Source: Vreelandella nigrificans | Lineage (GTDB): Bacteria > Pseudomonadota > Gammaproteobacteria > Pseudomonadales > Halomonadaceae | Assembly (NCBI RefSeq): GCF_002374315.1 | Contig: NZ_NWUX01000001.1 | Location: 186,001-250,000, forward strand | Direction of reading: 5' to 3' | DNA: 64,000 nt | Shown here: in pieces, positions 12,791 through 32,208 of the stretch | Layout: each line of letters opens with the position of its first letter | Position numbering within the stretch: the stretch's first letter is position 1 | The notes under the pieces: generated by a model | Databases searched by the model: none | What the model was told of the DNA's origin: nothing | The model's input: only the letters and a program-made list of their open reading frames with translations | Made by a program: the position numbers and the translations under genes

Positions 12791-12879
12791 GCGATCACAA
12801 ACAAATGTGACCCACAATGCAACAGCCGCGCGAGGCCGAAAGGAGAGGTGTTGGGCGGCTAAGTTAAAGTAAAAGTACT

Positions 12880-12930: not shown

Positions 12931-12936
12931 GTGAGG

Positions 12937-13500: not shown

Positions 13501-13543
13501 TGGCGTTCCTCTATCCTTTATTATGGAGGTCAATCTACTTAGA

Positions 13544-14383: not shown

Positions 14384-14412
14384 GTCAGTGTCTCGGTATC
14401 CTAACAAATAAC

Positions 14413-14436
14413 AACGCCGACCACCGGGTCGGCGTT
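14413..14436 (-). terminator. Intrinsic terminator of the acyl-CoA synthetase gene
   Basis: A perfect 10-bp stem (AACGCCGACC / GGTCGGCGTT) with a 4-base loop is followed on the minus strand by the T-rich stretch GTTATTTGTT. It sits 26 bases after the stop of the leftward acyl-CoA synthetase gene and separates it from the methyltransferase gene. Confidence 0.75.
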
Positions 14437-14462
14437 GACGATGGGGCGGTTACTCGTCTAAC

Positions 14463-16160: not shown

Positions 16161-16217
16161 GATATGTCTCTCCGATATTTTTTTTGTCTAAACGGGAAGT
16201 CAGGCGATATTTAATTA

Positions 16218-17126
16218 TTATTGGTTGCCAGCGCCTTTTGCTAGGGCGACTTTTGAGCTTGGCCTGCGGCCTAACTTGTTGGTAATCCAGTAGCCAGTGT
16301 CTATGACCGCTTGTAGGTCGATGCCAGTGTGAATTCCTAAGCCTTCTATCAAGTAGAGCACGTCTTCGGTAGCCACATTGCCGGAAGCACCTTTGGCATA
16401 GGGGCAGCCACCAAGGCCCGCTGTTGCCGCATCAATCACACTCACTCCTTCTTCCAGTACGGCATAGAGATTCGCCAACGCCATGCCGTAGGTATCGTGG
16501 AAGTGAGCAGCTAAATACTCAATGGGCACTTGCTGGCGGGTCGCTTCAATCATGCGCTTAGCGGCTAATGGCGTGCCTACACCAATGGTGTCGCCAAGCG
16601 ATATCTCATAGCAGCCCATCTCGAAAAGAGCATTGGCTACCTCGGCGACTTTAGCGGGGGAGATATCACCTTCATAAGGGCAGCCCAGCACACAGGAGAC
16701 GTAGCCGCGTACTCTCACGCCAGCCTCATTAGCCCGCTCAAGCACTGGTTCAAAGCGCTTAAGAGATTCGGCGATCGAACAGTTTATGTTCTTTTGTGAG
16801 AATGCCTCAGAGGCTGCGCCAAACACCGCGACCTCTTCAACACCTGCTGCCAGTGCGCCCTCTAACCCCTTTAGATTGGGCGTGAGCGCCGAGTAGACGA
16901 CGCCGGGTTGACGAGTAATGCCGTTCATGACGTCAGTGGCATCGCCCATTTGCGGTACCCATTTAGGCGAAACAAAGCTAGCCGCCTCAATATGAGTAAG
17001 GCCAGCCTTGGCTAGCCGTTCGATAAGCTCGATTTTGGTGGTAGTGGGCACCAACGTGCCCGGTTCGTTTTGTAGGCCGTCGCGCGGGGCCATCTCAAAT
17101 AGCTTGATAGAGGTTGGCAGTGCCAT
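16218..17126 (-). CDS. liuE: Hydroxymethylglutaryl-CoA lyase
   Basis: The protein is 302 aa and cleaves HMG-CoA to acetyl-CoA and acetoacetate, the last step of leucine degradation. The DRE-TIM signature appears as [11 protein letters not shown] (residues about 11-21), [15 protein letters not shown] follows, the metal ligands lie in [13 protein letters not shown], and [19 protein letters not shown] carries the active-site cysteine. Length and motifs match bacterial HMG-CoA lyases. It follows liuD by 12 bases in the same operon. The clear RBS AGGAGAG lies before the ATG at 17126. Confidence 0.94.
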
Positions 17127-17138
17127 TGGTTGGCTCTC

Positions 17139-19205
17139 CTATTCGCTGGGGGCAAAGTCGAGCAGCACATCACCCTGGCTGACGGTATCGCCTGCCTGGA
17201 AATGGAAGGCATCGACGCTGCCATCGGCTGGCGCAGTCATGGTGTGTTCCATCTTCATGGCTTCCATGACCATTAGCGGCATACCTTTCTCAACGGCTGC
17301 CCCTGACGCTACAAGAAGGGCGACAACCGTGCCGTTCATGGGGGCTGTCAGGGTGGATTCTGTCTCATGGTGACCATGGTCGATGGCATCAATTCGTCGC
17401 CAGAACAGGCGGGTTTCACCACTTGGTTCAGCCATTACCACAATATGTCCGTCCCGGCGGGCCTGCAGGCGGCGTCGGTGGCCATTTAGCGTCACTGCAA
17501 CGGCATCGCCAGTGAGTGGCTGTAGGCTGGCGGTTAGCGTTTTATCACCGATAGTGAGGTTCCATAGCGACTCGCCACTTTCACGTTTGCCTTCAACAAT
17601 GACCACTGCCTCATCGTTATCGGATGCTTGGGCAGGCCCTTGAGAAAATCCAGGGTCGCTCAATGCTATACGGATAGTATGGGGTGCATTCAAGCGGAAG
17701 CCATCGTGACGATCCCAGGGTGAATCGCTTTCGCACTCTTGGGCTAGCTGGTTTAGTCCAATCAACGCAGCGCTGGCGTATGCTTCGGTGGAGTAGCTGC
17801 GCGGTGCAAACAGTGCGGCTTCGTTGCGTTCGATAAAGCGCGTGTCCAGCTCAACGTTTTTGAAGCCAGGGTGGTTGGCAAGGCGCTGGAGGAACGCTCG
17901 GTTAGTTACCACGCCCTGTACATCCAGCGCAGCCAAGGCTCGGTTGAGCGTGGCTAGCGCGGCATCACGGTCAGCACCGTGCACAATCAGTTTGGCAAGC
18001 ATGGGGTCGTAGTGCATCGAGACCACATCGCCACTCTCCACGCCGCTATCTAAGCGAACCTGGTCGGCACTTAATCCTGCGCCTTCTAAATCCAGTGCGA
18101 AGCGAGTGAGTAGACCGGTAGCAGGCAGAAAGTCCTGATCCGGGTCTTCGGCATAAATACGCGCCTCGAAGCTGTGTCCGGTAATGGTCAGCTCATCTTG
18201 AGTGCAAGGGAGCTTTTCGCCCATGGCAACACGTAGCTGCCACTCGACCAAATCCTGACCGGTGATCATCTCCGTCACCGGGTGCTCAACCTGTAGACGG
18301 GTATTCATTTCCATAAAGTAGAATGAGCCATCGGCGTCTAGTAGAAACTCGACGGTACCAGCACCTACATAACCGATTTCCTGAGCGGCACGCACGGCGG
18401 CATCACCCATGGCGCTACGCAGCTCCGCCGTCATGCCCGGTGCGGGGGCTTCTTCGATTACCTTTTGGTGGCGTCGCTGCACACTACAGTCGCGTTCGAA
18501 CAGGTAAACGCCGTTACCGTGACGGTCGCAGAATACCTGGACTTCCACATGTCGGGGTTGTACCAGGTACTTCTCGATCAGCATTCGGTCATCACCGAAA
18601 GCGGCCTTGGACTCGCGTCGGCAACCGTCTAGGGCTGCCTTGAACCCTTCACCACTTTCCACCACGCGCATGCCTTTACCACCGCCGCCTGCACTGGCTT
18701 TGAGCATCACTGGGTAGCCGATCTTGTCAGACTCGGCACGCAACAGAGCGTCGTCTTGGTCATCGCCATGGTAGCCAGGCACGAGTGGAACACCTGCGTT
18801 GGCCATACGCGCTTTCGCTGCGGATTTATCGCCCATAGCAGCAATCGCAGAGGCGGGCGGGCCGACAAACGTAATACCTGCTTGCTCAAGGGCTTTTACG
18901 AAGCCACCATTTTCTGAGAGAAATCCATAACCAGGGTGAATAGCCCCGGTGCCAGTGCGTTTGGCGGCATCAATTACTGCTTCAATATTAAGGTAACTTT
19001 CGCGGGCGGCGGCGGGGCCTAAACGTACTGCTTCATCGGCTTCACGCACGTGGCGGGCAGAGGCATCGGCATCCGAATAGATAGCGACGGTTTTCAGTCC
19101 CATACGGCGGGCGGTGCGCATTACACGGCAAGCAATTTCGCCTCGGTTGGCCACTAGCAGCGTGTCGAATTTATGTATTTCAGGCCTGTTTTCGTCAAGC
19201 GTCAT
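17139..19205 (-). CDS. liuD: Methylcrotonyl-CoA carboxylase alpha (biotin-carrying) subunit
   Basis: The protein is 688 aa. A biotin carboxylase half (about 10-455) has ATP-grasp motifs KASAGGGGKGMRVVE, QRRHQKVIEEAPAP and FMEMNTRLQVEHPVTE. A linker follows, then a biotinyl domain with EAMKMEH, in which Lys651 is the biotin site. It carboxylates biotin for transfer by LiuB to 3-methylcrotonyl-CoA. Acetyl- and propionyl-CoA carboxylase alpha subunits are similar, but the liu context fixes the assignment. Its start overlaps the liuC stop by 4 bases. Confidence 0.93.
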   Translation of the reverse strand: MTLDENRPEIHKFDTLLVANRGEIACRVMRTARRMGLKTVAIYSDADASARHVREADEAVRLGPAAARESYLNIEAVIDAAKRTGTGAIHPGYGFLSENGGFVKALEQAGITFVGPPASAIAAMGDKSAAKARMANAGVPLVPGYHGDDQDDALLRAESDKIGYPVMLKASAGGGGKGMRVVESGEGFKAALDGCRRESKAAFGDDRMLIEKYLVQPRHVEVQVFCDRHGNGVYLFERDCSVQRRHQKVIEEAPAPGMTAELRSAMGDAAVRAAQEIGYVGAGTVEFLLDADGSFYFMEMNTRLQVEHPVTEMITGQDLVEWQLRVAMGEKLPCTQDELTITGHSFEARIYAEDPDQDFLPATGLLTRFALDLEGAGLSADQVRLDSGVESGDVVSMHYDPMLAKLIVHGADRDAALATLNRALAALDVQGVVTNRAFLQRLANHPGFKNVELDTRFIERNEAALFAPRSYSTEAYASAALIGLNQLAQECESDSPWDRHDGFRLNAPHTIRIALSDPGFSQGPAQASDNDEAVVIVEGKRESGESLWNLTIGDKTLTASLQPLTGDAVAVTLNGHRRRLQARRDGHIVVMAEPSGETRLFWRRIDAIDHGHHETESTLTAPMNGTVVALLVASGAAVEKGMPLMVMEAMKMEHTMTAPADGSVDAFHFQAGDTVSQGDVLLDFAPSE

Positions 19206-20035
19206 GAGCGTGGCTCCGCGGCGTTGTTATGTTCTTGAGAATTTGAAGGTTGCGTCCAGACAGGGCGGCGCTTTTCAAAAAAGCTGGATAATCCTTCTTG
19301 GCCCTCTGGGCTAACCCGCAGCTCGGCAATTACCTGGCAGGTATGCTCTCGAGTGGCATCGCTGTCTGGTGCTTGGGCCACACGTGCTAAAAGCGCCTTG
19401 GTTGCTCGTTGGGCCTGGGGAGAACCAGCGAGCAGGGTATCCAGCATGGCATCTATCGCGTTATCAAGGGCCTCGTGATCTACCACTTGATGGGCTAAAC
19501 CGAGTGCCAGCGCGGTTTGGGCATCGATCACTTCTGCCGTTAGTGCATAGCGGCGCATCTGGCGTTCGCCAAGTGCACGCTGAACGTAAGGGCTGATCAC
19601 TGCGGGCGACAGGCCGACTTTGACTTCCGAGAGGCAGAACTTGGCTTTATCCGATGCCACCACCAAGTCGCAGCAGGCAGCCAGGCCCACCGCACCGCCA
19701 AAGGCAGCGCCTTGAACACGGCAAACCGTGGGGCAGGGTAGGGAGTCAAGCCCATACATCAGCGCAGCTAGCTTGCGGGAGTCGGCAAGGTTGTCTTCCA
19801 GGTCATAATCGACCATGCGCTTCATCCAGTTCAGGTCAGCTCCTGCGGAGAAGCTTTTGCCTTCCGAGCCCAGTACTACCACCCGCACATCACCGGACTT
19901 GGCCAGTTGATGCAGCCTATCTAGATGGCTATTTAGCTCGGCGATCAGACTGTCATCAAAGGCGTTATGCACCTCTGGGCGGTTAAGCGTTAAGCGGGCG
20001 ATTCCGTCTTCAATCAATAACGTTGAGTAAGCCAT
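19202..20035 (-). CDS. liuC: Methylglutaconyl-CoA hydratase
   Basis: The protein is 277 aa of the enoyl-CoA hydratase/crotonase superfamily, hydrating 3-methylglutaconyl-CoA to HMG-CoA. The oxyanion-hole segments are KSFSAGADLNWMKRM (about 65-78) and VQGAAFGGAVGLAACCDLV (about 103-121), and SEVKVGLSPAVISPYV follows. ADLNWM is characteristic of the LiuC/AUH group. It sits between liuB (12 bases upstream) and liuD (4-base overlap). The C-terminal ~20 residues (SNSQEHNNAAEPRS) look like an unstructured extension. Confidence 0.92.
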   Translation of the reverse strand: MAYSTLLIEDGIARLTLNRPEVHNAFDDSLIAELNSHLDRLHQLAKSGDVRVVVLGSEGKSFSAGADLNWMKRMVDYDLEDNLADSRKLAALMYGLDSLPCPTVCRVQGAAFGGAVGLAACCDLVVASDKAKFCLSEVKVGLSPAVISPYVQRALGERQMRRYALTAEVIDAQTALALGLAHQVVDHEALDNAIDAMLDTLLAGSPQAQRATKALLARVAQAPDSDATREHTCQVIAELRVSPEGQEGLSSFFEKRRPVWTQPSNSQEHNNAAEPRS

Positions 20036-20047
20036 CGTCTTCGCCCC

Positions 20048-21655
20048 TTACATCCGGAACACGCCGAAGCGTGTCTCTTCAACTTCCGCGTTCATGGCAG
20101 CTGCAAGGGAAAGCCCAAGTACATCACGGGTTTGCAGCGGATCGATAACACCGTCGTCCCACAAGCGGGCGCTGGCGTAGTAGGGATGGCCTTGATGCTC
20201 GTACTGGTCGCGGGTGGGTTGTTTGAAAGCTTCTTCTTCCTCCTTGCCCCATTCGCGGCCTTCGCGTTCGTGTTGCTCGCGCTTTACCTGTGAAAGTACG
20301 CCCGCTGCCTGCTCGCCGCCCATCACCGAAATACGTGCGTTAGGCCACATAAACAGCAGGTTAGGGTCATAGGCGCGACCACACATACCATAGTTGCCCG
20401 CACCGAAGCTGCCGCCAATTAACACGGTGTATTTGGGGACTTTGGCGCAGGCCACCGCAGTAACAAGTTTGGCACCATGCTTGGCGATCCCTTCGTGCTC
20501 GTACTTGGAGCCGACCATAAAGCCGGTAATATTCTGTAGGAAGACCAGCGGAATCTTGCGCTGGGCACATAGCTCGATAAAGTGCGCGCCTTTTACGGCA
20601 CTTTCAGAGAACAGCACGCCGTTGTTGGCCACAATCCCTACGGGGTGGCCGTGGATATGGGCAAAGCCAGTGACCAAAGTATCGCCGTAGTAGCGTTTGA
20701 ATTCGTCAAAGTCTGAGCTATCAACAATTCGACCAATGACTTCACGCACGTCGTAAGGTTTTTTCAGGTCGGTGCCGACAATGCCATACAGCTCAGTAGG
20801 ATCAAGCTTAGGTGGTTTGGGCGCTTGCATGGCCAATTTGCCACGCTTTTGCCAGTTCAGTCGTGACACACAGGCACGGGCCAACTGTAGTGCGTGGGCA
20901 TCATTTTCAGCGTAGTGGTCGGCCACACCACTTATTTTAGCGTGAACATCGGCACCGCCTAGATCTTCCGCACTGATGCTTTCACCGGTAGCTGCTTTTA
21001 CCAGTGGCGGTCCGCCTAAGAAAATTGTGCCTTGCTCTTTTACGATGATCGATTCGTCCGCCATGGCGGGCACATAAGCGCCACCAGCGGTACAGGAGCC
21101 CATGACGACGGCAATTTGCGGAATACCTTCGGCGGACATAGTGGCTTGGTTGTAGAAAATGCGACCGAAGTGGTCGCGGTCAGGAAACACTTCATCTTGG
21201 CGGGGCAAGAAGGCACCGCCAGAGTCCACGAGATAAATACACGGCAGGCGATGTTTACGAGCAATTTCCTGGGCGCGCAGGTGTTTTTTAACCGTTAGCG
21301 GAAAATAAGTGCCGCCTTTTACCGTGGCATCGTTGGCGACAATCACGCATTCAACGCCCGATACCCGGCCAATACCCGTCACCACACCTGCAGCAGGTAC
21401 GTCGCTGTCGTAAACGTGGTGGGCTGCCAGCGCGGAAAACTCTAAAAATGGCGAGCCTTCATCGATCAAGTGGTCAATTCGGTCGCGGACAAAAAGTTTG
21501 CCACGGCTTTCATGGCGTTCTCGGGCTTTAGCGCCGCCACCCTGGGCGACGGCCGCAGTGAGTTGGCGTAGTTTAGTAACCTCCCCAAGCATTGACGATT
21601 CATTCGCCTGGAAGACATCACTGCGTGGATTGATCTGAGTGGAAATAGTGCTCAT
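20048..21655 (-). CDS. liuB: Methylcrotonyl-CoA carboxylase beta (carboxyltransferase) subunit
   Basis: The protein is 535 aa, a carboxyltransferase that moves the carboxyl group from biotin on LiuD to 3-methylcrotonyl-CoA. Family landmarks include [44 protein letters not shown] split over about residues 143-167, the CoA-binding [12 protein letters not shown] (about 375) and [18 protein letters not shown] (about 408-425). The length matches bacterial MCC beta subunits. It lies 22 bases after the liuA stop and 12 bases before liuC. Confidence 0.94.
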
Positions 21656-21677
21656 AGCGCGCCCCTACGGAATTTCA

Positions 21678-22847
21678 TTAAAGAGTTTCGTTGAAGAGTT
21701 CGCGACCAATTAGCATACGGCGAATTTCGCTGGTACCCGCGCCAATTTCATAGAGCTTCGCATCGCGTAGTAGGCGACCGGTGGGGTACTCATTGATATA
21801 GCCATTGCCGCCCAGTAACTGAATGGAATCCAGTGCCACTTGAGTGGCTTTTTCGGCACAGTAGAGGATCACGCCAGCAGCGTCTTTGCGGGACGTTTGG
21901 CCACGGTCGCAGGCGCCGGCAACGGCGTATAAATAGGCGCGGCAAGCGTTCAGAGTGGTGTACATATCGGCTACTTTGCCCTGCACCAGCTGGAACTCGC
22001 CAATCGATTGATTGAACTGCTTACGTTCGTGGATATAGGGCATCACCACATCCATGGCAGCCTGCATAATGCCAATCGGGCCTGCGGCGAGCACGGTGCG
22101 CTCGTAGTCCAGCCCGCTCATCAGTACGCGTACACCTTTGCCTACGTCTCCCAACACGTTTTCGGCAGGTACTTTGCAGTCTTGGAATACCAGCTCGCAG
22201 GTGTTGGAGCCACGCATGCCCAGCTTGTCGAGTTTCTGGGCGGTAGAAAAGCCTGGCATGCCTTTCTCGATAATGAAGGCGGTGATGCCTTTAGAGCCCG
22301 CATCGGGGTCAGTTTTAGCGTAAACCACCAGCACGTCAGCATCAGGGCCGTTGGTGATCCACATTTTGTTGCCGTTAAGAATGTAGTGATCGCCGTCCTG
22401 TTTGGCGCGTAACTGCATAGAGACGACATCGGAACCCGCGCCAGGCTCGGACATCGCAAGCGCGCCCACATGGTCGCCGCTAATCAATTTGGGCAGGTAT
22501 TTGGCTTTCTGTTCGGCGGACGCATTAATCTTGAGCTGGTTAACGCACAGGTTAGAGTGGGCGCCGTAGGAGAGTGCTACCGAAGCACTGGCCCGAGAGA
22601 TCTCCTCCATAGCGATACAGTGGGCGAGGTAGCCCATCCCGCTGCCACCATCCTCTTCAGATACCGTAATACCCAACAGGCCCATATCGCCAAACTTCTT
22701 CCATAGATCGTTCGGAAATTCGTTGTTGCGGTCAATTTCGGCGGCGCGGGGGGCAATCTCGCTAGCGGCAAAGGCATTGACCTGTTCGCGCAGCATGTTC
22801 AGTTCGTCGTCCAGGCCAAAGTTAAGTTCTGAATAGTGTGAAAACAT
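21678..22847 (-). CDS. liuA: Isovaleryl-CoA dehydrogenase
   Basis: The protein is 389 aa, an FAD acyl-CoA dehydrogenase oxidising isovaleryl-CoA to 3-methylcrotonyl-CoA. The FAD/substrate segment is [20 protein letters not shown], then [19 protein letters not shown]. The catalytic base is in [14 protein letters not shown], the position specific to isovaleryl-CoA dehydrogenases, and [32 protein letters not shown] (split here only for description) forms the C-terminal FAD contact. I use the ATG at 22847 ([11 protein letters not shown]) with AAGG 9 bases upstream, not the TTG at 22853. It is the first structural gene of liuABCDE. A short imperfect tandem repeat separates it from liuR. Confidence 0.94.
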
Positions 22848-22860
22848 GGTCAATTACCTT

Positions 22861-22917
22861 GTCATTGTTAAAGGGACTAGTCGTCGTTAAAGAGACTGGC
22901 CGTTATTCAAAGAGGGC
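22861..22917. repeat. Imperfect tandem repeat, about 19 bp x 3
   Basis: Three related 19-base units (22861-22879, 22880-22898, 22899-22917) share the core GTCGTCGTTAAAGAGACT with several substitutions. The array lies between liuR and liuA and runs into the liuR stop region. Confidence 0.6.
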
Positions 22918-23320
22918 TTTTCGTTGTTAACGGAGGTTTTTCGTTAAGTTCTTCAAGGGCTTGGCGGCAGCGAATCTCAGCACTCTCAAGCTCTAGCTGC
23001 ACAATAGCGATATCTTTCATTTGCTGTTCTAAGGCGGCTTTGCGTTCGCTGATCTTGCTTAGCATTAGGTGCAGCTGCTTTTCACTGCCACTACGGGTCT
23101 CATCCCACAGTTCAAACAGTTCACGTATCTCTGCCAGAGAAAACCCCAACCGCTTACCGCGTAGTGTGAGCTTTAGTCGTACACGATCTTTACTGCTGTA
23201 AATACGTGTTTGGCCCCGACGAGAGGGGTGTAGTAGCTCCTGGTCTTCATAAAACCGAATGCTGCGAGTGGTTACGTCAAACTCACTGGCCAGTTCACTG
23301 ATCGAGTAGGTTTTGCTCAT
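22907..23320 (-). CDS. liuR: MerR-family regulator of branched-chain amino acid catabolism
   Basis: The protein is 137 aa. The N-terminal winged helix (SISELASEFDVTTRSIRFYED, then LLHPSRRGQTRIYSSKDR) is typical of MerR proteins. A coiled-coil dimerisation helix of about 60 residues follows, with no cysteine metal site. Position at the head of liuABCDE and the perfect palindrome upstream identify it as LiuR, which in other gammaproteobacteria represses leucine catabolic genes. I choose the ATG at 23320 (MSKTYSISEL) because it begins just before the HTH and is preceded by GACGAGAA; a frame extension to 23362 lacks support. It lies 60 bases ahead of liuA. Confidence 0.9.
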   Translation of the reverse strand: MSKTYSISELASEFDVTTRSIRFYEDQELLHPSRRGQTRIYSSKDRVRLKLTLRGKRLGFSLAEIRELFELWDETRSGSEKQLHLMLSKISERKAALEQQMKDIAIVQLELESAEIRCRQALEELNEKPPLTTKSPL

Positions 23321-23383
23321 GATCGTTATTCTCGTCGATAGGGGAATGTCCCTATGGAACACTGACCATGAGGCTAAAACAAG

Positions 23384-23399
23384 TTTACGTTAACGTAAA
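23384..23399. promoter_or_regulatory. LiuR box upstream of liuR-liuABCDE
   Basis: A perfect 16-base palindrome TTTACGTTAACGTAAA lies 64 bases before the liuR start. It contains two ACGT cores 2 bases apart, the pattern known for LiuR operators in gammaproteobacteria. Confidence 0.88.
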
Positions 23400-23550
23400 G
23401 ATGATATTGCTGTGGTTTGATATGCGTATTTTTATTGTAAGCTGTTGATAAATAATTATAAGAAATGATTTTAAAAGATTTTATGAAGGTTGCGTAGACC
23501 AAAGTTGTAATTGTAATACCCCTCAAGTGATTGCTAGTTTGCACCTACAC

Positions 23551-23566
23551 CTTACGTTCAGGTAAA
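23551..23566. promoter_or_regulatory. LiuR-box-like site upstream of the ABC transporter
   Basis: CTTACGTTCAGGTAAA matches the perfect liuR-side palindrome at 13 of 16 positions and keeps the spacing of the two cores (ACGT and AGGT). It lies 88 bases upstream of the livG-like start, so the transporter may share LiuR control. Confidence 0.6.
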
Positions 23567-23653
23567 GATGTGTCGCCGGCTAACGATTTTCCGCTCCAGA
23601 GTAAACTGGCTGGTGCAAAGTCAGCACAATAACAACAAGAGGCTTACCACTTC

Positions 23654-24442
23654 ATGCGTGCAGACGATGTAGTTAATGGGCCAGTGCTCGAAACGCGAGG
23701 GCTGACCAAAGAGTTCCGCGGCTTTACCGCCGTTGATAATGTGAATCTTCAGGTACAAGAGGGTCATATTCATGCGCTAATCGGGCCAAACGGCGCCGGT
23801 AAAACAACGGTGTTCAATCTACTTACCAAATTTCTACCCCCTACCCGCGGTGAAATCTTATATCGCGGCCAACCTATCACTAGTAAAAAATCTAATGAAA
23901 TCGCCCAGCTTGGGTTAGTGCGCTCTTTCCAAATTTCGGCGGTGTTTGCCCACATGACAGCGCTGGAAAATGTCCGCGTGGCGCTACAGCGTCAATTGGG
24001 GACATCCTTTCATTTTTGGAAGTCGGAGAAGTCGCTTGATCATCTCAATGATCGAGCAATGGAGTTGCTGAATGAGGTAGGCCTAAAAGAGTATGCCGAC
24101 ACCTTAACCGTAGAAATGCCCTATGGCCGCAAGCGCGCCCTGGAAGTGGCGACTACTTTGGCACTTGACCCCACCATGATGCTGCTGGATGAACCCACCC
24201 AGGGCATGGGCGCGGAAGATGTTGATCGCATCGTAGCGCTGATTAAACGCGTCTCAAAAGGGCGCACAGTATTAATGGTTGAGCATAACCTGAGTGTGGT
24301 GAGCCGCCTTTGCGACCGAATTACCGTGTTGGCGCGTGGAGCAGTGTTAGCGGAGGGCGATTACGAAAACGTTTCCCGCAACCCGCTGGTACGAGAAGCC
24401 TATATGGGTAGTGAAGCCGCTGAAGAGGAGGCTGCCGTATGA
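23654..24442 (+). CDS. livG: Branched-chain-type ABC transporter ATP-binding protein (LivG-like)
   Basis: The protein is 262 aa. Walker A is GPNGAGKTT (about residue 43), the Q-loop lies in VRSFQISAVF, the signature motif is the variant MPYGRKRALEVA, Walker B is MMLLDEP, and the H-loop is MVEHNLSVV. The insert after the Q-loop and the C-terminal VREAYMGSE are typical of LivG-type subunits. It is the first gene of livG-livF-SBP-livH-livM, a HAAT-family importer for branched-chain amino acids or related amides. The neighbouring catabolic operons make leucine, valine or isoleucine the likely cargo, by inference. The next gene overlaps by 4 bases. Confidence 0.88.
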   Translation: MRADDVVNGPVLETRGLTKEFRGFTAVDNVNLQVQEGHIHALIGPNGAGKTTVFNLLTKFLPPTRGEILYRGQPITSKKSNEIAQLGLVRSFQISAVFAHMTALENVRVALQRQLGTSFHFWKSEKSLDHLNDRAMELLNEVGLKEYADTLTVEMPYGRKRALEVATTLALDPTMMLLDEPTQGMGAEDVDRIVALIKRVSKGRTVLMVEHNLSVVSRLCDRITVLARGAVLAEGDYENVSRNPLVREAYMGSEAAEEEAAV

Positions 24443-25188
24443 ATACCGCTGAAGCCTATGAGGCGAATGAAGCAACCGATACCCACTCTTTAGAAATGCT
24501 GCGTGTTCAGGATCTGCATGCCTTCTACGGTGAATCGCATATTCTGCATGGCGTTAACTTCAATGTTAAGCGGGGGGAGTTGGTCACTCTGTTAGGCCGC
24601 AACGGTGCTGGGCGCAGTACCACGCTAAAGTCGATTATGAATATGGTGGGGCGGCGTACGGGCTCAATCGTGATTAACGGTAACGAAACCCTACACATGA
24701 AGCCGCACCATATCCCTCGCTTGGGTATCGGTTATTGCCCAGAAGAGCGCGGTATTTTTGCCAGCCTCGATGTTCACGAAAACCTGCTGTTACCGCCAAC
24801 GGTTCGCTCTGGGGGGATGAGCCTGGACGAGATTTACGGGATGTTCCCTAATCTTTACGAGCGTCGTAAAAGTCAGGGCACGCGCCTTTCCGGCGGTGAG
24901 CAGCAGATGTTGGCCATGGCGCGTATTTTGCGCACCGGTGCCAGGCTGTTACTGCTTGATGAGATTACCGAAGGGCTAGCGCCGGTTATTGTGCAGAAAT
25001 TAGCCGAGGTGCTGGTTCAGCTAAAAGAGCGCGGCATGACCATTGTGCTGGTAGAGCAGAACTTCCGTTTTGCAGCCCCTTTGGCCGACCGCCACTTTGT
25101 CATGGACCATGGTCAGATAGTAGAAGAGATCAGCGCAGCACAGCTGCCTTCACGCCGCGAACACCTTAATACCATGCTGGGGGTATAG
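24439..25188 (+). CDS. livF: Branched-chain-type ABC transporter ATP-binding protein (LivF-like)
   Basis: The protein is 249 aa. The Walker A motif reads GRNGAGRST, so arginine 59 stands where the invariant P-loop lysine is expected. The rest of the ATPase looks intact: Q-loop region GIGYCPEERGIFASLDVHENL, signature LSGGEQQMLAMAR, Walker B LLLLDEITEGLAP and switch His/Gln region LVEQNFRFA. An N-terminal extension of about 20 residues is rich in Glu, Ala and Thr. It overlaps livG by 4 bases and pairs with it as the second nucleotide-binding subunit. The K-to-R change may mean an asymmetric ATPase pair or a subfamily trait. Confidence 0.86.
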   Translation: MNTAEAYEANEATDTHSLEMLRVQDLHAFYGESHILHGVNFNVKRGELVTLLGRNGAGRSTTLKSIMNMVGRRTGSIVINGNETLHMKPHHIPRLGIGYCPEERGIFASLDVHENLLLPPTVRSGGMSLDEIYGMFPNLYERRKSQGTRLSGGEQQMLAMARILRTGARLLLLDEITEGLAPVIVQKLAEVLVQLKERGMTIVLVEQNFRFAAPLADRHFVMDHGQIVEEISAAQLPSRREHLNTMLGV

Positions 25189-25264
25189 CGCCGACCTCAA
25201 CTGAAAATAACAGACACAATCAACGCTGCTCCTTTGCTCCTAACCACGACACTTTAAAGTAATT

Positions 25265-25316
25265 CTTGAAAACAAGTCTTGAAAACAAGTTTTTAAAACA
25301 AGCTTTTAAAACAACG
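25265..25316. repeat. Tandem repeat, 13 bp x 4
   Basis: Two identical units CTTGAAAACAAGT (25265-25277, 25278-25290) are followed by two diverged units TTTTAAAACAAGC and TTTTAAAACAACG. The array lies in the 183-base gap between livF and the substrate-binding protein gene. Each of the first two units is itself palindromic (CTTG...CAAG). Confidence 0.85.
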
Positions 25317-25371
25317 CTGCACTAATACGTCGCATCACAAAAACAAAGGCCTTCAGGGCCAGGAGACGAAC

Positions 25372-26595
25372 ATGACCTTTATCAAAAAAACACTGGCTAC
25401 CAGTATCGCTGTTGCCGCTGCCTCTAGCATAGCTATCTCAACCGCTCAGGCTGAGATCAGTAATGGGGAAGTGCGGATTGGCTATTTAGCGGATATGTCA
25501 GGCACTTACCGTGATCTTGCTGGTCCGGGTGGCCAAAAAGCGCTAGAAATGGCAGTGGCAGATTTTGGCGGCAGCGTAAACGGTGCACCCATCGTCGTGT
25601 TTAGTGCCGATGACCGCAATAGTGCCGACGTAGGTGCTAACACCGTGCGCGAGTGGATTGATCAGCGCAACGTGGACATGGTGGCAGGGCTGGTAGCCTC
25701 CTCAGTTACCATTGCGGTGACCAGGGTGCTTGAGGAAAACAATGGGCTAGGTATCGTTTCCGGCTCTGCGGCGTCCAGTATTACCAATGAGCACTGTACC
25801 CCCAATCATATTCACTGGGTGTATGACACCTATCCGCTCGCCAATGGTACGGCGCAGGCTGTTGTGGAGCAGGGTGGAGATAGCTGGTTCCTCCTTACTG
25901 CCGATTACGCTTTCGGTCACGCTCTGGAAGGCGATGTACGGCGTGTAGTAGAAGAGAGCGGCGGTGAGGTAGTCGGTGGTGTTCGTCATCCATTCCCCAC
26001 CAGCGATTTCTCTTCTTATATTCTTCAGGCGCAAGGTTCTGGCGCCAAAATCGTGGGCCTAGCTAATGCTGGTGCCGATACTGTCAACGCCATCACCACA
26101 GCCAGCCAGTTTGGCCTTACTCAAAGTGGCCAGCAGTTAGCGGGCCTACTGATCTTCTTGAACGATGTTCATGCGTTAGGTTTGGATGCCACCCAAGGAC
26201 TGCTGCTAACCACCGGTTGGTACTGGGATATGGATGAAGAAGCCCGTGAGTGGTCCGAGCGCTACTACGCCGAAATGGGTCGTATGCCCACTATGGTTCA
26301 GGCCGGTGTTTACTCAAGCACCATGCACTATCTGAAAGCGGTGGAAGCGGCTGGCACCGATGACCCAGAAACAGTGCGTGCGCAAATGGCTGAGATGCCC
26401 GTTGAGGACTTCTTTGCCCGTAACGGCAGGATTCGTGAAGATGGTCGTATGATTCACGATATGTACCTTGCCCAGGTGAAAACACCTGAAGAGTCCACTG
26501 GTGAGTGGGATCTGTACGAAATCCTCAGCACTATCCCCGCCGAAGACGCCTACCGTCCGCTTTCTGACAGCCAATGCAAGCTGGTTCAAAACTAA
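25372..26595 (+). CDS. Branched-chain-type ABC transporter periplasmic substrate-binding protein
   Basis: The protein is 407 aa with a Sec signal peptide (KKTLATSIAVAAASSIAIS, cleavage near AQAEIS). The mature protein is a type I periplasmic binding fold (Peripla_BP_6): VRIGYLADMSGTYRDLAGPGG at the N-terminus, SADDRNSADVG, GLVASSVTIAVTRVLEENN, and LLTADYAFGHALEGDVR in the hinge region. This matches Leu/Ile/Val, amide and urea binders; the ligand cannot be fixed from sequence alone. RBS AGGAG lies 7 bases before the ATG. A gap of 183 bases before it, with tandem repeats, may hold its own promoter. Confidence 0.88.
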   Translation: MTFIKKTLATSIAVAAASSIAISTAQAEISNGEVRIGYLADMSGTYRDLAGPGGQKALEMAVADFGGSVNGAPIVVFSADDRNSADVGANTVREWIDQRNVDMVAGLVASSVTIAVTRVLEENNGLGIVSGSAASSITNEHCTPNHIHWVYDTYPLANGTAQAVVEQGGDSWFLLTADYAFGHALEGDVRRVVEESGGEVVGGVRHPFPTSDFSSYILQAQGSGAKIVGLANAGADTVNAITTASQFGLTQSGQQLAGLLIFLNDVHALGLDATQGLLLTTGWYWDMDEEAREWSERYYAEMGRMPTMVQAGVYSSTMHYLKAVEAAGTDDPETVRAQMAEMPVEDFFARNGRIREDGRMIHDMYLAQVKTPEESTGEWDLYEILSTIPAEDAYRPLSDSQCKLVQN

Positions 26596-26780
26596 CGCTG
26601 TTTCACAACGAGCGTTGGTTCAGAGCCAAAGCAGGCTGAAAAGCAAGTTAGAAAGCATCAGGCCTATGGCGACGCACAAGGTGTAGCAATGAACAGCAAC
26701 CTTGGAGCGTTATTACAAAAGCAATATCCAGGTGCGGCAGCAGGTGCTGCCGCACGCTTGGCGGCGAGGAGAGTCATACC

Positions 26781-27668
26781 ATGACGATGATATTCGGCGT
26801 GCCACTGGCCGTGTTCATGGGCCAGCTAACGCTTGGGCTCGTGAACGGTGCCTTTTATGCACTGCTTAGTTTGGGCCTGGCGGTCATCTTCGGCCTACTG
26901 AAGATCGTCAACTTTGCCCACGGGGCGCAATACATGCTGGGAGCCTTCGCCGCGCTGTTAGGCTTTCGCTACTTGGGCATTAATTACTGGCTAGCGCTCA
27001 TTTTAGTGCCGCTGGTGGTTGGTGGTTTCGGCATGCTGATGGAGCGCTTCTTGTTACGTCGAATTGCCCATTTGGACCACCTTTACGGGCTGCTATTAAC
27101 CTTTGGGCTGGCGCTGATTTTTGAAGGGACGCTGGTCAACTTTTTTGGGGTTTCCGGCGCACGCTACACCACCCCGGAGGCGCTACAGGGGGGTATGAAC
27201 CTTGGGTTTATGTTCCTGCCTACTTATCGTGCCTGGGTGCTGGTGGCGGCATTAACGATGTGTCTATTCACCTGGTTTATGATTGAGCGCACTCGTTTGG
27301 GCGCCTACCTGAGGGCTGGTACTGAGAATTCCCAGCTCATGCAGGCGTTCGGTGTGAACGTGCCACTGTTAATCACATTAACCTATGGGTTTGGCGTGGC
27401 GCTTGCCGCCTTTGCCGGTGTTCTTGCGGCACCGCTATATCCTGTATCACCAACTATGGGGTCAAGTCTGCTAATCGTGGTGTTTGCAGTGGTCGTCATT
27501 GGCGGAATGGGCTCGATTCTGGGGGCGATTCTCACTGGCCTGGGTATGGGGGTTATTGAAGGGCTAACGAAGGTGTATTACCCGGAAGCCTCCAATACCG
27601 TGATCTTCCTGGTGATGATATTGGTGCTCATGTTACGCCCCGCAGGGCTGTTCGGTAAGGAGGCATGA
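26781..27668 (+). CDS. livH: Branched-chain-type ABC transporter permease (LivH-like)
   Basis: The protein is 295 aa and very hydrophobic, with about eight transmembrane helices. It opens with GQLTLGLVNGAFYALLSLGL and GLLKIVNFAHGAQYMLGAF, the standard LivH N-terminal pattern. The cytoplasmic coupling region includes ERTRLGAYLRAGTENSQLMQAFGVN, and VVIGGMGSILGAILTG is the conserved C-terminal segment. It pairs with LivM to form the membrane channel. RBS GAGGAG lies about 10 bases upstream, and the livM start overlaps its stop by 4 bases. Confidence 0.9.
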   Translation: MTMIFGVPLAVFMGQLTLGLVNGAFYALLSLGLAVIFGLLKIVNFAHGAQYMLGAFAALLGFRYLGINYWLALILVPLVVGGFGMLMERFLLRRIAHLDHLYGLLLTFGLALIFEGTLVNFFGVSGARYTTPEALQGGMNLGFMFLPTYRAWVLVAALTMCLFTWFMIERTRLGAYLRAGTENSQLMQAFGVNVPLLITLTYGFGVALAAFAGVLAAPLYPVSPTMGSSLLIVVFAVVVIGGMGSILGAILTGLGMGVIEGLTKVYYPEASNTVIFLVMILVLMLRPAGLFGKEA

Positions 27669-28663
27669 CCATGGCAGATTCTCAAGCAATCAAGGCACCA
27701 TCCGCAGTAAGAGAGCGTCAAAAAAGGGCCGATATGCGTCGCAATCTATTCTATATAGCGCTTATCGCGATTGGGCTGGTTGCGCCCTTTGTGGCCTATC
27801 CCGTGTTCTTAATGAAGATCCTCTGCTTTGCGCTATTTGCCTGCGCTTTTAATCTACTGCTTGGCTATGCTGGCCTGCTCTCTTTTGGACATGCGGCGTT
27901 CTTGGCCACTGGGGGGTATGTGACTGGCTACTTGCTGGCAAGTTACCCAGGCCTTACACCCGAGTTGGGAATTATAGGCGGTACCCTGTTGGCAACACTG
28001 CTGGGGTTCTTGTTTGGTGTGCTCTCTATCCGCCGCCAGGGTATCTACTTTGCCATGGTAACGCTGGCGCTGGCGCAGCTTGTCTACTTCATGTTTGTGC
28101 AAGCGCCGTTTACCGGTGGTGAGGATGGCTTGCACGGCGTGCCTCGTGGTGAGCTGTTTGGGTTTATCAGTCTGCGCAGTAACTTAGCCATGTACTACTT
28201 CGTGTTCGCAATCTTCTTATTCGGCTTTGCGCTTATTCAGCGTACCGTGCATTCGCCCTTTGGGCAGGTGCTTAAAGCAATTCGCGAAAACGAGCCCCGT
28301 GCCATTTCTCTGGGCTATAACGTTGATGCCTACAAACTGCTGGCTTTTGTGCTTTCAGCGGCACTGGCAGGGCTGGCGGGTTCTACCAAAACCGTGGTGT
28401 TCCAGCTGGCCTCGTTAACCGATGCCCATTGGCATATGTCGGGTGAAGTGATCCTGATGACGCTGCTGGGTGGGGTAGGTACTTTACTCGGCCCGCTGAT
28501 GGGGGCTGGCATTGTGGTTAGCCTGCAGCACGTTTTGGCGCAGTCACCATTAGGCAACTGGGTAAACGTCATCTTAGGGATCATCTTTGTAGTCTGCGTA
28601 CTTAGCTTCCGCAGTGGCATTGTGGGTGAGCTGGGCAAGATGTATCGCAAAAACTTTAAATAA
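27665..28663 (+). CDS. livM: Branched-chain-type ABC transporter permease (LivM-like)
   Basis: The protein is 332 aa with about ten predicted transmembrane helices. Family landmarks are FNLLLGYAGLLSFGHAAF, FGVLSIRRQGIYFAMVTLA, the coupling-helix region GQVLKAIRENEPRAISLGYN and GGVGTLLGPLMGAGIV. It forms the translocation pore with LivH. It overlaps livH by 4 bases and is followed by a strong terminator, so it closes the transporter operon. Confidence 0.9.
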   Translation: MTMADSQAIKAPSAVRERQKRADMRRNLFYIALIAIGLVAPFVAYPVFLMKILCFALFACAFNLLLGYAGLLSFGHAAFLATGGYVTGYLLASYPGLTPELGIIGGTLLATLLGFLFGVLSIRRQGIYFAMVTLALAQLVYFMFVQAPFTGGEDGLHGVPRGELFGFISLRSNLAMYYFVFAIFLFGFALIQRTVHSPFGQVLKAIRENEPRAISLGYNVDAYKLLAFVLSAALAGLAGSTKTVVFQLASLTDAHWHMSGEVILMTLLGGVGTLLGPLMGAGIVVSLQHVLAQSPLGNWVNVILGIIFVVCVLSFRSGIVGELGKMYRKNFK

Positions 28664-28688
28664 TGGCTTGAATCGGGTCTGTCCGTTG

Positions 28689-28712
28689 GGTGCCTCAGGG
28701 CACCTTTTTTTT
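28689..28712 (+). terminator. Intrinsic terminator of the ABC transporter operon
   Basis: A 6-bp stem GGTGCC / GGCACC with a 4-base loop (28689-28704) is followed by eight T residues (28705-28712), 25 bases after the livM stop. This is a classical rho-independent terminator. Confidence 0.9.
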
Positions 28713-28796
28713 GCCAAAAAACGCATCTACGCCACAGTATCTACGCCAAAGGTCGTGGGGGGTAAGCGGTTGCGTAGGTTAGGGTAAGAATATAAG

Positions 28797-28812
28797 TTAA
28801 CGTAAACGTCAA
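28797..28812. promoter_or_regulatory. LiuR-box-like site upstream of the valine catabolic operon
   Basis: TTAACGTAAACGTCAA contains two ACGT cores 2 bases apart, as in the perfect LiuR palindrome, and matches it at 13 of 16 positions. It lies 119 bases before the acyl-CoA dehydrogenase start. An overlapping register at 28791-28806 matches 14 of 16 positions but holds only one ACGT core. Confidence 0.7.
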
Positions 28813-28931: not shown

Positions 28932-30086
28932 ATGAATTTTGAGCTAAACGAAGACCAGGTTGCCTTTGCTGATATGGCACGGGCATTTGCCCAGAATGAG
29001 CTTGAGCCCCATGCCGCCCAGTGGGATGCCGAAGCTTTCTTTCCGGTAGATGTGATTCGCAAAGCGGGTGAGTTGGGCTTTTGTTCGCTCTACGCGTCCG
29101 AAAGCGTTGGTGGGCTAGGTCTTTCCCGGTTAGACGCCAGCATCATTTTCGAGCAGCTCTCCATGGGTTGTACCTCAACCACGGCTTACCTCACGATTCA
29201 TAATATGGTGACCTGGATGCTGGCAGATTTCGGCACGCCAGCAGCGGTAGCACAGTGGGGTGAAAAGCTGGCGACTGGCGAGCTACTCGGTTCCTACTGC
29301 TTAACCGAGCCCAATGCAGGCTCTGATGCGGCATCGCTTAAAACCACCGCCAAACGCGATGGTGACGCCTATGTGCTGAACGGCAGTAAAATGTTTATTT
29401 CCGGTGCAGGTAGTACCGATTTTCTAGTCGTAATGGCGCGCACCGGTGGTGAAGGCCCTGGCGGTGTTTCCGCTTTTGCCGTCGACGCTAAAGCAAGCGG
29501 CATTAGCTATGGCCGCAAAGAGGACAAAATGGGCTGGAATAGCCAGCCTACCCGCATGATCACCTTTGAAGATGTACGCGTGCCCGCTGATCATCTATTG
29601 GGCAACGAAGGCGACGGTTTTAAAATTGCCATGAAGGGGTTGGATGGTGGCCGCATCAATATCGCCACGTGTTCAATCGGTACCGCCCAGCAGGCAATTA
29701 ATAAAGCCCGCGAGTACATGCTAGAGCGTAAACAGTTCGGCAAGCGTTTAGCAGACTTTCAAGCGTTGCAGTTCCGCTTGGCTGATATGGTCACTGAACT
29801 TGTTGCTGCTCGCCAGTTGGTGCGCATGGCGGCCGCTAAGCTGGATTTAGGCCACCCAGATGCCACCGCTTATTGTGCCATGGCCAAGCGCTTTGCTACC
29901 GATGTAGGCTTTAAGGTCTGCGATGAAGCGCTTCAGCTATATGGTGGTAACGGCTATATCAAGGAGTACCCCATGGAGCGCTATGTGCGTGACACCCGGG
30001 TACACCGCATTCTGGAAGGTACCAATGAAATTATGCGGCTGATTATTTCTCGCCGCATACTGGCCAGTGGTGCCGCCGAGCTATAG
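28932..30086 (+). CDS. Acyl-CoA dehydrogenase, probably isobutyryl-CoA dehydrogenase
   Basis: The protein is 384 aa, an FAD-dependent acyl-CoA dehydrogenase. GSYCLTEPNAGSDAASLKTTA and KMFISGAGSTDFLVVMART form the FAD and substrate site. LQLYGGNGYIKEYPMERYVRD and RILEGTNEIMRLIISR carry the C-terminal catalytic glutamate as in short-chain enzymes. The segment MGCTSTTAYLTIHNMVTWML strongly resembles mammalian ACAD8 (isobutyryl-CoA dehydrogenase). The following hydrolase and mmsB complete most of the valine pathway. The clear start is MNFELNEDQVAFADMA. It is probably LiuR-controlled. Confidence 0.88.
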   Translation: MNFELNEDQVAFADMARAFAQNELEPHAAQWDAEAFFPVDVIRKAGELGFCSLYASESVGGLGLSRLDASIIFEQLSMGCTSTTAYLTIHNMVTWMLADFGTPAAVAQWGEKLATGELLGSYCLTEPNAGSDAASLKTTAKRDGDAYVLNGSKMFISGAGSTDFLVVMARTGGEGPGGVSAFAVDAKASGISYGRKEDKMGWNSQPTRMITFEDVRVPADHLLGNEGDGFKIAMKGLDGGRINIATCSIGTAQQAINKAREYMLERKQFGKRLADFQALQFRLADMVTELVAARQLVRMAAAKLDLGHPDATAYCAMAKRFATDVGFKVCDEALQLYGGNGYIKEYPMERYVRDTRVHRILEGTNEIMRLIISRRILASGAAEL

Positions 30087-30130
30087 TTAGACAGCCAGAC
30101 ACAAGACCAGCCAACCAAAAGGATAATGGA

Positions 30131-31246
30131 ATGAGTTGCGTACTGTTTGCTGAACACACCACCCAAGATGGCCATGTGGTTGCAGAGATTACCCTCAATG
30201 CCGAGCGCTCGCTTAATGCGCTAACGCTGGAAATGATCGAAGCAATATTGCCACGGCTTCAAGCCTGGCAAGCTGATGCGCGGGTAGTCGCGATACTGCT
30301 GGATAGCGCTGGCGAAAAAGCGTTTTGCGCTGGAGGTGATGTGGTCAACCTCTATAAAGCCATTACGGGCGATGGAGACCCAGACTTTCCCCAGCGTTTT
30401 TTTGATACGGAGTATCGCCTCGACTACCTGCTGCACACCTATCCCAAACCGGTTATTTGTTGGGGCAGTGGCATTGTAATGGGCGGTGGTATGGGGTTGC
30501 TGAGTGGCAGTAGCCATCGTGTGGTGACTGAAACTTCCCGTCTTGCCATGCCGGAAGTAACGATTGGCCTATACCCGGATGTGGGAGCAAGCTGGTTTCT
30601 AAACCGGCTGCCTAACGGTACAGGACGCTTTTTAGCGATGACGGGTGGCCAAATTAACGCACTAGATGCAGTACATCTAGGCCTGGCTGACCGTGCTATA
30701 GCAAGCCACCAGCGGGATGTGCTGGCGCAGAAGCTGCTAGAAGCGACCTGGGGGGAAGGTAAGCATACTGACGCTCATGGCGTGGTTAACGGCGTGCTAC
30801 GCGAGTTAGAGCAGGCCTCTCAAAATGCCTTTGCCGAACTTGAATCACCTGTGTACAAATCCACCGCGTTGATCCGTGAACTCATGGACCATGACACTGT
30901 TGAGCAAATAGTAGCGTCGATTCTAGCGGTAAAAACTGATGATAAGTGGTTTAACCGAGCGCAAAAAACGTTAGCCCACGGCAGCCCGGTATCGGTCAAG
31001 CTAATTGATGAGCAGCTAAAGCGCGCCAAGCACATGTCGCTTGCGGAGGTGTTTCAGTCGGAACTGGCGCTTTCAGTACAGTGCTGTCGCCATCGGGAAT
31101 TCCCGGAAGGTGTACGTGCACTATTGGTAGATAAAGATGGCCTGCCCGCGTGGACGTACCCCGATGTTGCTTCGGTCAAACCATCTTTTATTGATGAGCT
31201 GCTAGCCTCTCCGTGGGAGAAGAGCCCCCTCGCAGATCTTCACTGA
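30131..31246 (+). CDS. 3-hydroxyisobutyryl-CoA hydrolase
   Basis: The protein is 371 aa, a crotonase-superfamily member that hydrolyses 3-hydroxyisobutyryl-CoA in valine degradation. KAFCAGGDVVNLYKA (about residues 63-77), WGSGIVMGGGMGLLSGSSHR (about 113-132) and MPEVTIGLYPDVGASWFLNRL carry the oxyanion hole and catalytic Glu/Asp of this subgroup. The C-terminal ~120-residue extension distinguishes it from ordinary 260-aa enoyl-CoA hydratases. It lies 44 bases after the acyl-CoA dehydrogenase and before mmsB. The RBS AAAAGGAT precedes the ATG. Confidence 0.9.
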   Translation: MSCVLFAEHTTQDGHVVAEITLNAERSLNALTLEMIEAILPRLQAWQADARVVAILLDSAGEKAFCAGGDVVNLYKAITGDGDPDFPQRFFDTEYRLDYLLHTYPKPVICWGSGIVMGGGMGLLSGSSHRVVTETSRLAMPEVTIGLYPDVGASWFLNRLPNGTGRFLAMTGGQINALDAVHLGLADRAIASHQRDVLAQKLLEATWGEGKHTDAHGVVNGVLRELEQASQNAFAELESPVYKSTALIRELMDHDTVEQIVASILAVKTDDKWFNRAQKTLAHGSPVSVKLIDEQLKRAKHMSLAEVFQSELALSVQCCRHREFPEGVRALLVDKDGLPAWTYPDVASVKPSFIDELLASPWEKSPLADLH

Positions 31247-31257
31247 CACCATTTCCA

Positions 31258-31299
31258 AAACACGCTAATTCTTAAACACACTCATTCTTCAACACACTA
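31258..31299. repeat. Tandem repeat, 16 bp x 2 plus a degenerate unit
   Basis: AAACACGCTAATTCTT (31258-31273) and AAACACACTCATTCTT (31274-31289) differ at two positions; a partial third unit CAACACACTA follows. The array ends 15 bases before the mmsB start. Confidence 0.7.
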
Positions 31300-31314
31300 A
31301 TAAGGACAACAAAG

Positions 31315-32208
31315 ATGACTACTGTTGCGTTTATCGGTTTAGGCAATATGGGCGGCCCAATGGCAGCCAACTTGGCAAAAGCGGGTTTTAATGTACGTGC
31401 GTTCGATCTTTCAGAGCAAGCACTTGAAACCGCAAAATCGCAAGGCTGCGAAGTAGCAGTGTCAGCCAAGGCCGCCGCTACTGATGCAGACTTTATTATT
31501 TCCATGCTGCCTGCGGGCAAGCATGTGCGGGGGCTCTATGTAGACGGCGATGAGCCACTATTCAGTGTGATTAAACAGAGCGCATTGGTGATTGACTGCT
31601 CAACGATCGATGCTGATACCGCACGTAGCGTAGCTGCTGCCGGTGCGGAAAAAGGGGTTGGCTTTGTTGATGCTCCGGTATCCGGCGGGGTGGGCGGTGC
31701 CCAAGCAGGTACGCTGACTTTCATCGTGGGTGGCAGCGCTGCACAGTTTGAACAGGCTCAACCCGTGCTGGAAGTGATGGGTAAAAATATCTTCCATGCT
31801 GGTGACCATGGTGCCGGGCAGGTAGCCAAAGTATGCAACAACATGCTGTTGTCTATTTTGATGGCGGGCACCTGTGAAGCGATCAATATGGGCGTGAAAA
31901 ACGGCCTGGACCCAGCGGTGCTTTCCGAAATCATGAAACAAAGCTCTGGCGGTAACTGGGCACTGAACGTTTACAACCCTTACCCTGGCGTGATGGAAAA
32001 TGCCCCCGCCTCGAAAGGCTACCAGGGCGGCTTCCAGGTGGATCTTATGATCAAAGACCTGGGCCTTGCCATGGATGTTAGCCAACAGAGCGCTTCGCCT
32101 GTCCCCATGGGATCTGCTGCCCGCTCGCTGTTTACCCTGCACAAGGCGAGCGGCAACGGCAAGCTCGACTTCTCCAGCCTGCTACAGCTTTATCAGGATA
32201 AAGAGTGA
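31315..32208 (+). CDS. mmsB: 3-hydroxyisobutyrate dehydrogenase
   Basis: The protein is 297 aa and oxidises 3-hydroxyisobutyrate to methylmalonate semialdehyde with NAD+. The N-terminal Rossmann motif is FIGLGNMGGPMAANLAKAG; DAPVSGGVGGAQAGTLTFIV is the substrate-binding signature; GAGQVAKVCNNMLL carries the catalytic lysine (about residue 171); and KDLGLAMDVSQQ is the conserved C-terminal helix. It is the third gene of the valine cluster. The expected mmsA (methylmalonate semialdehyde dehydrogenase) is not in the window. RBS AAGGAC lies just upstream of the ATG. Confidence 0.93.
   Translation: MTTVAFIGLGNMGGPMAANLAKAGFNVRAFDLSEQALETAKSQGCEVAVSAKAAATDADFIISMLPAGKHVRGLYVDGDEPLFSVIKQSALVIDCSTIDADTARSVAAAGAEKGVGFVDAPVSGGVGGAQAGTLTFIVGGSAAQFEQAQPVLEVMGKNIFHAGDHGAGQVAKVCNNMLLSILMAGTCEAINMGVKNGLDPAVLSEIMKQSSGGNWALNVYNPYPGVMENAPASKGYQGGFQVDLMIKDLGLAMDVSQQSASPVPMGSAARSLFTLHKASGNGKLDFSSLLQLYQDKE

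Follow-up and report, generated by a model that had tools for sequence, protein, structure and literature searches.

Predicted LiuR boxes and ACTU-type sites at the branched-chain amino acid operons of Vreelandella nigrificans

We analyzed a stretch of 64,000 nucleotides from Vreelandella nigrificans (the window, located in contig 11 of the 4.93 Mb genome G000), which carries the leucine catabolism genes liuR-liu, a divergent ATP-binding cassette (ABC) importer of the livGFKHM type and the valine operon acdH-echA-mmsB. Each of these operons is preceded by a box of the type bound by LiuR, described as a MerR-family repressor of branched-chain amino acid utilization (PMC3223726). In addition, the liv promoter and, more weakly, the acdH promoter have blocks resembling ACTU, the inverted repeat that is reported to be needed for activation by CrbR in P. 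fluorescens, where it lies at -52 to -36 of acs (PMC5715377). Our overall explanation, to which we give a probability of about 0.65, is that LiuR would repress at its boxes and the response regulator CrbR/ErdR would activate at the ACTU sites. Judging from the conservation of the boxes, LiuR very probably controls both the uptake and the breakdown of branched-chain amino acids in this bacterium.

The box of liuR-liu (op1, 23384..23399) is the exact palindrome TTTACGTTAACGTAAA, as a previous sequence-only reading of this DNA had described, and the three boxes listed in that reading are all present at the positions it gave. A box precedes liuR in 80/80 related loci, with 0-2 mismatches in 79 of them and 3 in L043, and it is the match of rank 1 or 2 of a LiuR matrix in the same 80 loci; L043 is the exception, since the match counted there as op1 is its acdH box and its own liuR box is the one with 3 mismatches. 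The matrix is small, having been trained on 7 distinct op1 sites, and the comparison loci are related to one another and not independent. Counts for liv and for acdH refer to loci where the respective genes are adjacent. In the window, the liuR palindrome has 4 matches at <=3 mismatches (two of them overlapping, at 28791 and 28797), against 0.18 expected.

The box of the valine operon (op3, 28797..28812, TTAACGTAAACGTCAA) has two ACGT cores with the same spacing as in op1. It was found in the window and in 49/49 halomonad loci with acdH, and ranks 1-2 in 48/53 loci, a count in which the miss of L043 is an artefact of the exclusion rule. Measured against the liuR palindrome, a register starting at 28791 shows fewer mismatches; it was nevertheless rejected because relatives make the 28797 register palindromic: 9 loci read TTAACGTTAACGTCAA and L064 reads TTGACGTTAACGTCAA, which upholds the register originally chosen. 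When the columns of the LiuR matrix were permuted (loci of at least 12 kb, here and in the ACTU test below), 2/100 matrices equaled the real result at acdH; for the liv region this count includes op1, a training site, and is uninformative on op2.

The box of liv (op2, 23551..23566, CTTACGTTCAGGTAAA) is weaker, with 3 mismatches to the liuR palindrome, and would occupy about +4 to +19 of the predicted transcript. The sequence-only reading had attributed two ACGT-type cores at the same spacing to both op2 and op3. This holds at 28797, while at 23551 one core is a true ACGT and the other is AGGT. Even with this imperfect half-site, op2 is present in 47/47 halomonad sequences and in 8/19 other loci. 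Its mean column identity is 95% in the 47 halomonad sequences, against 67% at 23400-23550 and 64% at 23567-23653, and in 55/66 sequences the ACTU block is found at a distance of 56-57 bp from it (loci up to L088, as for the other spacing counts of this region). Since matches with 3 mismatches are close to the control across the genome, op2 is not significant by itself, and its support comes from conservation. In three Nitrincola loci (L091-L093) the livG start lies ~2.0-2.2 kb from liuR, and livG has its own LiuR-type box there (scores 19.7, 19.7 and 22.0); therefore, the liv site is more than a by-product of adjacency to liuR. The co-regulation of the importer and the valine operon with leucine catabolism, proposed in the sequence-only reading, is thus supported by the conservation of the sites in halomonads and by the relocated Nitrincola box. 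Poor conservation of the 23551 and 28797 sites in close relatives would have spoken against it; we made this comparison and both sites are well conserved in halomonads.

Some results count against LiuR acting at all of these boxes. Genome-wide, 24 matches per strand were found at <=3 mismatches, against 20 for a reversed control pattern; neighboring genes were inspected at 19 places of this set, and several sites are intragenic. The degenerate pattern TTNACGTNNACGTNAA, picked with the first and third boxes already in view, has 11 matches at <=1 mismatch against 19 for its control. A site near an atoE-type gene (C3:56887) scores 14.8 in this genome, but none of the 14 further loci scanned exceeds 10.0; it was rejected as a LiuR target and is an example of a chance match. 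Such figures are what would be seen if the liv and acdH boxes were themselves chance matches in A+T-rich intergenic DNA, an explanation that we consider very improbable: the conservation of both boxes, at fixed distances, far exceeds that of the surrounding DNA and already contradicts it. Furthermore, op3 is missing in 4/4 non-halomonad acdH loci, and op2 was not found in 11/66 sequences, all of them non-halomonad (11/19), although op1 stays. In addition to its AGGT core, op2 has a low LiuR-matrix score, 6.5 in most halomonads. It could be, then, that only op1 and op3 are LiuR operators, that op2 is the site of another protein or an element of the promoter or leader, and that liv answers chiefly to the regulator that binds ACTU, or else to LiuR bound at op1 only. 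We regard this as unlikely, because op2 retains one ACGT half as well as the outer YTTAC/GTAAR arms, comes within <=2 mismatches of the liuR palindrome in L030 and L031, and has a strong LiuR-type counterpart at the relocated liv of Nitrincola. We consider it very likely that LiuR acts at liu and acdH, and likely, with less certainty, that it acts at liv.

The predicted regulon is wider than three operons, and also takes in mmsA, an acyl-CoA ligase/HADH2 operon and a TRAP importer. The pattern TTNACGTNNACGTNAA has 3 exact matches in 4.93 Mb, before liuR, acdH and mmsA, each of them located at genes of branched-chain catabolism. The gene mmsA encodes methylmalonate-semialdehyde dehydrogenase (TIGR01722, 697 bits), and its box is retained in 16/18 same-genus orthologues and 1/2 from other genera; the mmsA paralogues L181-L186 were left out of the counts, as was L222, which has a partial ligase gene. 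The box before the operon for the acyl-CoA ligase and a HADH2-type dehydrogenase is retained in 17/17 loci scanned, and this operon possibly represents an isoleucine step. A box before the gene for a TRAP binding protein, which is related to ketoacid-binding proteins, scores >=10 in 12/14 homologues, the 12 closest. Upstream of this conserved box (L146:3834-3849), an ACTU-like block, TACAACTTTGG, was observed ~200-215 bp further away. One more candidate, before a branched-chain aminotransferase gene (C22:120379), was set aside as lineage-limited (2/18 loci above 16, two more at 10-11 and the rest <=4.8).

Between op1 and op2, conservation is highest at about 23494-23516; this stretch resembles ACTU and had gone unmentioned in the sequence-only reading. 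The inverted repeat itself (23494..23509) is the second-best ACTU match of the window. The matrix used is small, with 10 sites, none from liv or acdH: 4 same-genus acs variants, 3 acs sites of other families picked by eye and 3 from Table 4 of PMC5715377. The best match in the liuR-livG region is among the top 3 of its locus in 67/68 loci and first in 51 (5,447 to 20,441 positions each), and 0/100 column-permuted matrices did as well as the real one at liv. Scores at liv range from 7.9 to 12.8 in halomonads and from 12.4 to 20.6 in other genera. The three Nitrincola loci keep both sites at liv, with ACTU 50 bp before the LiuR-type box. At the ligase operon, ACTU and a LiuR box occur together in 17/17 loci, 75-83 bp apart. 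Before acdH there is a weaker block (28742..28757, rank 11 in the window); the best upstream match is in the top 3 in 27/53 loci and in the top 20 in 43/53, its position varies and it is not always the 28742 block, and 1/100 permuted matrices equaled the real result. Hence an inverted repeat upstream of the promoter, as in ACTU, is found at liv and at the ligase operon, and weakly at acdH.

A candidate for the regulator that may bind these sites is encoded in the genome. An ErdR/CrbR-like gene lies between acs and the gene of a CrbS-like hybrid kinase, which has PAS, HisKA, HATPase and receiver domains and, in the same frame, a partial match to SSF. Same-genus acs promoters have an ACTU site in 19/19 cases, and the exact ACTU-core matches in the genome include acs and the ligase operon. 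When acs loci of other families were compared with the consensus of this site, 1/11 (L106) scored 14/17 and the rest <=13.

On the other hand, there are several arguments against this assignment. The ErdR protein is below its model cut-off (269 vs 390 bits), and homologues occur in 36/36 genomes tested, so that their presence does not discriminate. The liv block of the window scores 11.6, against 14.2-19.9 for the training sites, and is outside the 8 exact ACTU-core matches of the genome (control 3). Two Marinobacter loci without liv score 9.4 upstream of liuR, within the halomonad range, and two others score 4.4. The acdH block is weak, and L037 and L039 are without it. Many of the 36 genomes have a second ErdR homologue with 41-48% identity, which could be an alternative binder, and in the Nitrincola genome G062 (locus L093) the liv ACTU block is a perfect palindrome while the sole ErdR match is 44% identical. 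In G062 the block may be bound by a paralogue; alternatively, the draft genome may be incomplete. These last findings fit an explanation in which another LuxR-type response regulator, a paralogue of ErdR, binds the block, with liv answering a signal other than acetate. We find this rather doubtful, given that same-genus acs promoters bear the same kind of site and that a CrbR-type regulator is encoded beside acs. On balance, we lean slightly toward CrbR/ErdR itself acting at liv, a prediction drawn from the sites and the gene neighborhood.

The promoters predicted around these sites, with hexamers assigned by eye, suggest how the two regulators might act. For liuR (23371..23399, minus strand), we propose a -35 TTTACG (23399-23394), a spacer of 17 bp and a -10 TAGCCT (23376-23371), based on conservation; op1 overlies the -35 and part of the spacer. 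For liv (23511..23540, plus strand), the -35 would be TTGTAA (23511-23516) and the -10 TAGTTT (23535-23540), with 18 bp between them; the order of ACTU, a promoter-like TTG...TTGCTA stretch and op2 is seen here, and the TTGCTA stretch is conserved in halomonads and other genera. For acdH (28770..28798, plus strand), conservation points to a -35 TTGCGT (28770-28775), 17 bp and a -10 TAAGTT (28793-28798), so op3 overlaps the -10 and the start. LiuR would thus sit on the -35 and spacer of liuR, on the -10 and start of acdH, and on the first transcribed bases of liv and of the ligase operon, positions that all fit repression; the location of ACTU upstream of liv and of the ligase operon fits activation. 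From the start of ACTU to the -10 the distance, measured by eye, is about 39 bp at acs, 41 at liv, 51 at acdH and 60 at the ligase operon, i.e. approximately helical turns apart. Binding, direction of effect, promoter positions, inducer and substrate are deduced rather than observed. When branched-chain substrate runs short, LiuR would repress liuR-liu, the ABC importer next to it and the valine operon and, in this genome, mmsA, the ligase/HADH2 operon and the TRAP importer as well. Phosphorylated CrbR/ErdR would activate from the upstream ACTU-type site of liv and of the ligase operon, with a weaker site at acdH. Promoters with both sites would fire with CrbR on and LiuR off.

A further element may take part at the liuR-livG region. 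An IHF-like site, TAAGCTGTTGATA (23438..23450, plus strand), has a near-constant position between op1 and the ACTU block. Its pattern YAANNNNTTGATW occurs with <=1 mismatch in 49/66 sequences, against 14.7 expected from mononucleotide shuffles, the sequences being related. Of the 66 sequences, 48 have an op1-to-ACTU distance of 108-111 bp, 17 have one of 120-122 bp and a single sequence has 116 bp; the two main classes are about one helical turn apart. We tentatively propose that liv, the ligase/HADH2 operon and, more weakly, the valine operon form a two-regulator module, with CrbR/ErdR as the on-switch and LiuR as the gate, in which the pair of liv sites would move as a unit, and an IHF-like bend and the op1-ACTU spacing would bring LiuR, IHF and CrbR together in a single complex for both divergent promoters. 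A complex of this kind may exist, but the idea is speculative. As a rule in its own right, a fixed phasing of op1 relative to op2 was abandoned, as it is not robust: L071 has a spacing of 173 bp (16.5 turns), and the second boxes of Nitrincola are at 245 bp (L091, L092) and 138 bp (L093, -194 vs -56). A MerR-type promoter with a long spacer was also weighed for liv, but it was not retained for lack of a suitable test.

The genes concerned were assigned as follows, with several neighboring identities named by eye. The liuR gene (22907..23320, minus strand) matches Pfam MerR_1 (1.5e-16) and has a likely ATG start at 23320; MerR models scored below cut-off and the LiuR family was assigned without a LiuR-named model. 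It is encoded together with liuA-liuD (17139..22853, minus strand), for an acyl-CoA dehydrogenase, a carboxyltransferase, a hydratase and a biotin carboxylase; liuA and liuB were identified by Pfam, and liuC and liuD were named from gene order and tblastn synteny only. The livG, livF, livK, livH and livM-like genes of a HAAT-type importer (23654..28663, plus strand) were recognized by Pfam for the livG and livK products and by open reading frames and synteny for livF, livH and livM. The importer did not qualify as a LIV-I (LivJ/K-HMGF) system: the binding protein, whose nearest solved structures are 3i09 and 3n0w, reached 33 bits in the LivK model PRK15404 (cut-off 477), and the LivG product 192.5 bits in PRK11300 (cut-off 362). 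The branched-chain substrate is inferred from family and gene context. The valine operon (28932..32208, plus strand), assigned by Pfam and NCBIfam, comprises acdH, echA for 3-hydroxyisobutyryl-CoA hydrolase and mmsB for 3-hydroxyisobutyrate dehydrogenase, the last with 428 bits in the HIBADH model, over its cut-off. By LiuR, the closest named relatives are Vreelandella and Halomonas. The order liu, liuR, livGFKHM, acdH-echA-mmsB was found again in most halomonad loci, and the divergent liu/liv pair is present also in Marinobacterium, Amphritea, Neptuniibacter and others. Five halomonad loci (L043, L051, L054, L059 and L067) have no liv at this place; there acdH is directly divergent from liuR and retains its box, which suggests that the importer is lost or gained as a unit.

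Other sequences related to these systems were also observed. The livG leader contains AATAACAACAA (23628-23638) directly before the ribosome-binding region; it is conserved in halomonads and fits the AAnAAnAA Crc motif reported after the acs and actP starts (PMC5715377). At 12879-12935 there is a tandem repeat with a period of 17 bp and 3.4 copies, each copy like an ACTU half-site pair (TGAGAGTAAAGTCTTG). Elsewhere in the genome (C66, ~15483; L229:1500-2330), genes for a CbrB-like regulator and a pcnB-like protein, both identified by eye, flank an exact ACTU-core match. AACAACAA-type motifs are abundant there, and a sub-threshold Rfam CrcZ match (17 bits, gathering 95, E 0.11) occurs in the same stretch.

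LiuR and its boxes are already known, and the CrbR/ErdR link to branched-chain promoters, if real, would be new. The LiuR regulon has been described in Shewanella and other proteobacteria, with lineage-specific extra targets such as gltBD, thrABC and aceBA in Shewanella (PMC3223726, PMC5343134). The role of LiuR as a MerR-family repressor of branched-chain amino acid utilization would be common to those systems and to the one predicted here, but the targets here include the ABC importer, the ligase/HADH2 operon and the TRAP importer. The CrbS/R (MxtR/ErdR) acetate regulon is reported to comprise acs, actP, scpC and a few others, and the available portions of the sources mention no branched-chain operons (PMC5715377, PMC8402216). 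Our genome resembles that system in the imperfect inverted repeat upstream of the promoter, in the putative ErdR homologue encoded next to a CrbS-like kinase and acs, and in the ACTU sites of its acs promoters; unlike the regulon as presented in those portions, ACTU-type sites here are found at branched-chain operons. A mostly title-level survey of the literature on CrbR/ErdR with branched-chain amino acids or leucine gave no stated link of CrbR to liv or liu. In P. aeruginosa, liu is described as controlled by LiuR repression together with CbrAB and Crc/Hfq (PMC8871633). Both arrangements, as far as that description goes, would join LiuR repression to a carbon signal relayed by a two-component system with an SLC5-domain kinase, but in P. 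aeruginosa CbrAB and Crc/Hfq act on liu, while here a CrbR-type site is found at the importer and the ligase operon. On propionate, P. aeruginosa reportedly increases MmsA and MmsB, and an erdR deletion grows worse than an acsA deletion; the same work suggests that ErdR has additional targets and that propionate is linked to branched-chain catabolism (PMC9765439). These results, as reported, would fit a CrbR link to the branched-chain operons. If this is true, halomonads and related marine bacteria would couple the import and breakdown of branched-chain amino acids to a two-component system that senses acetate.

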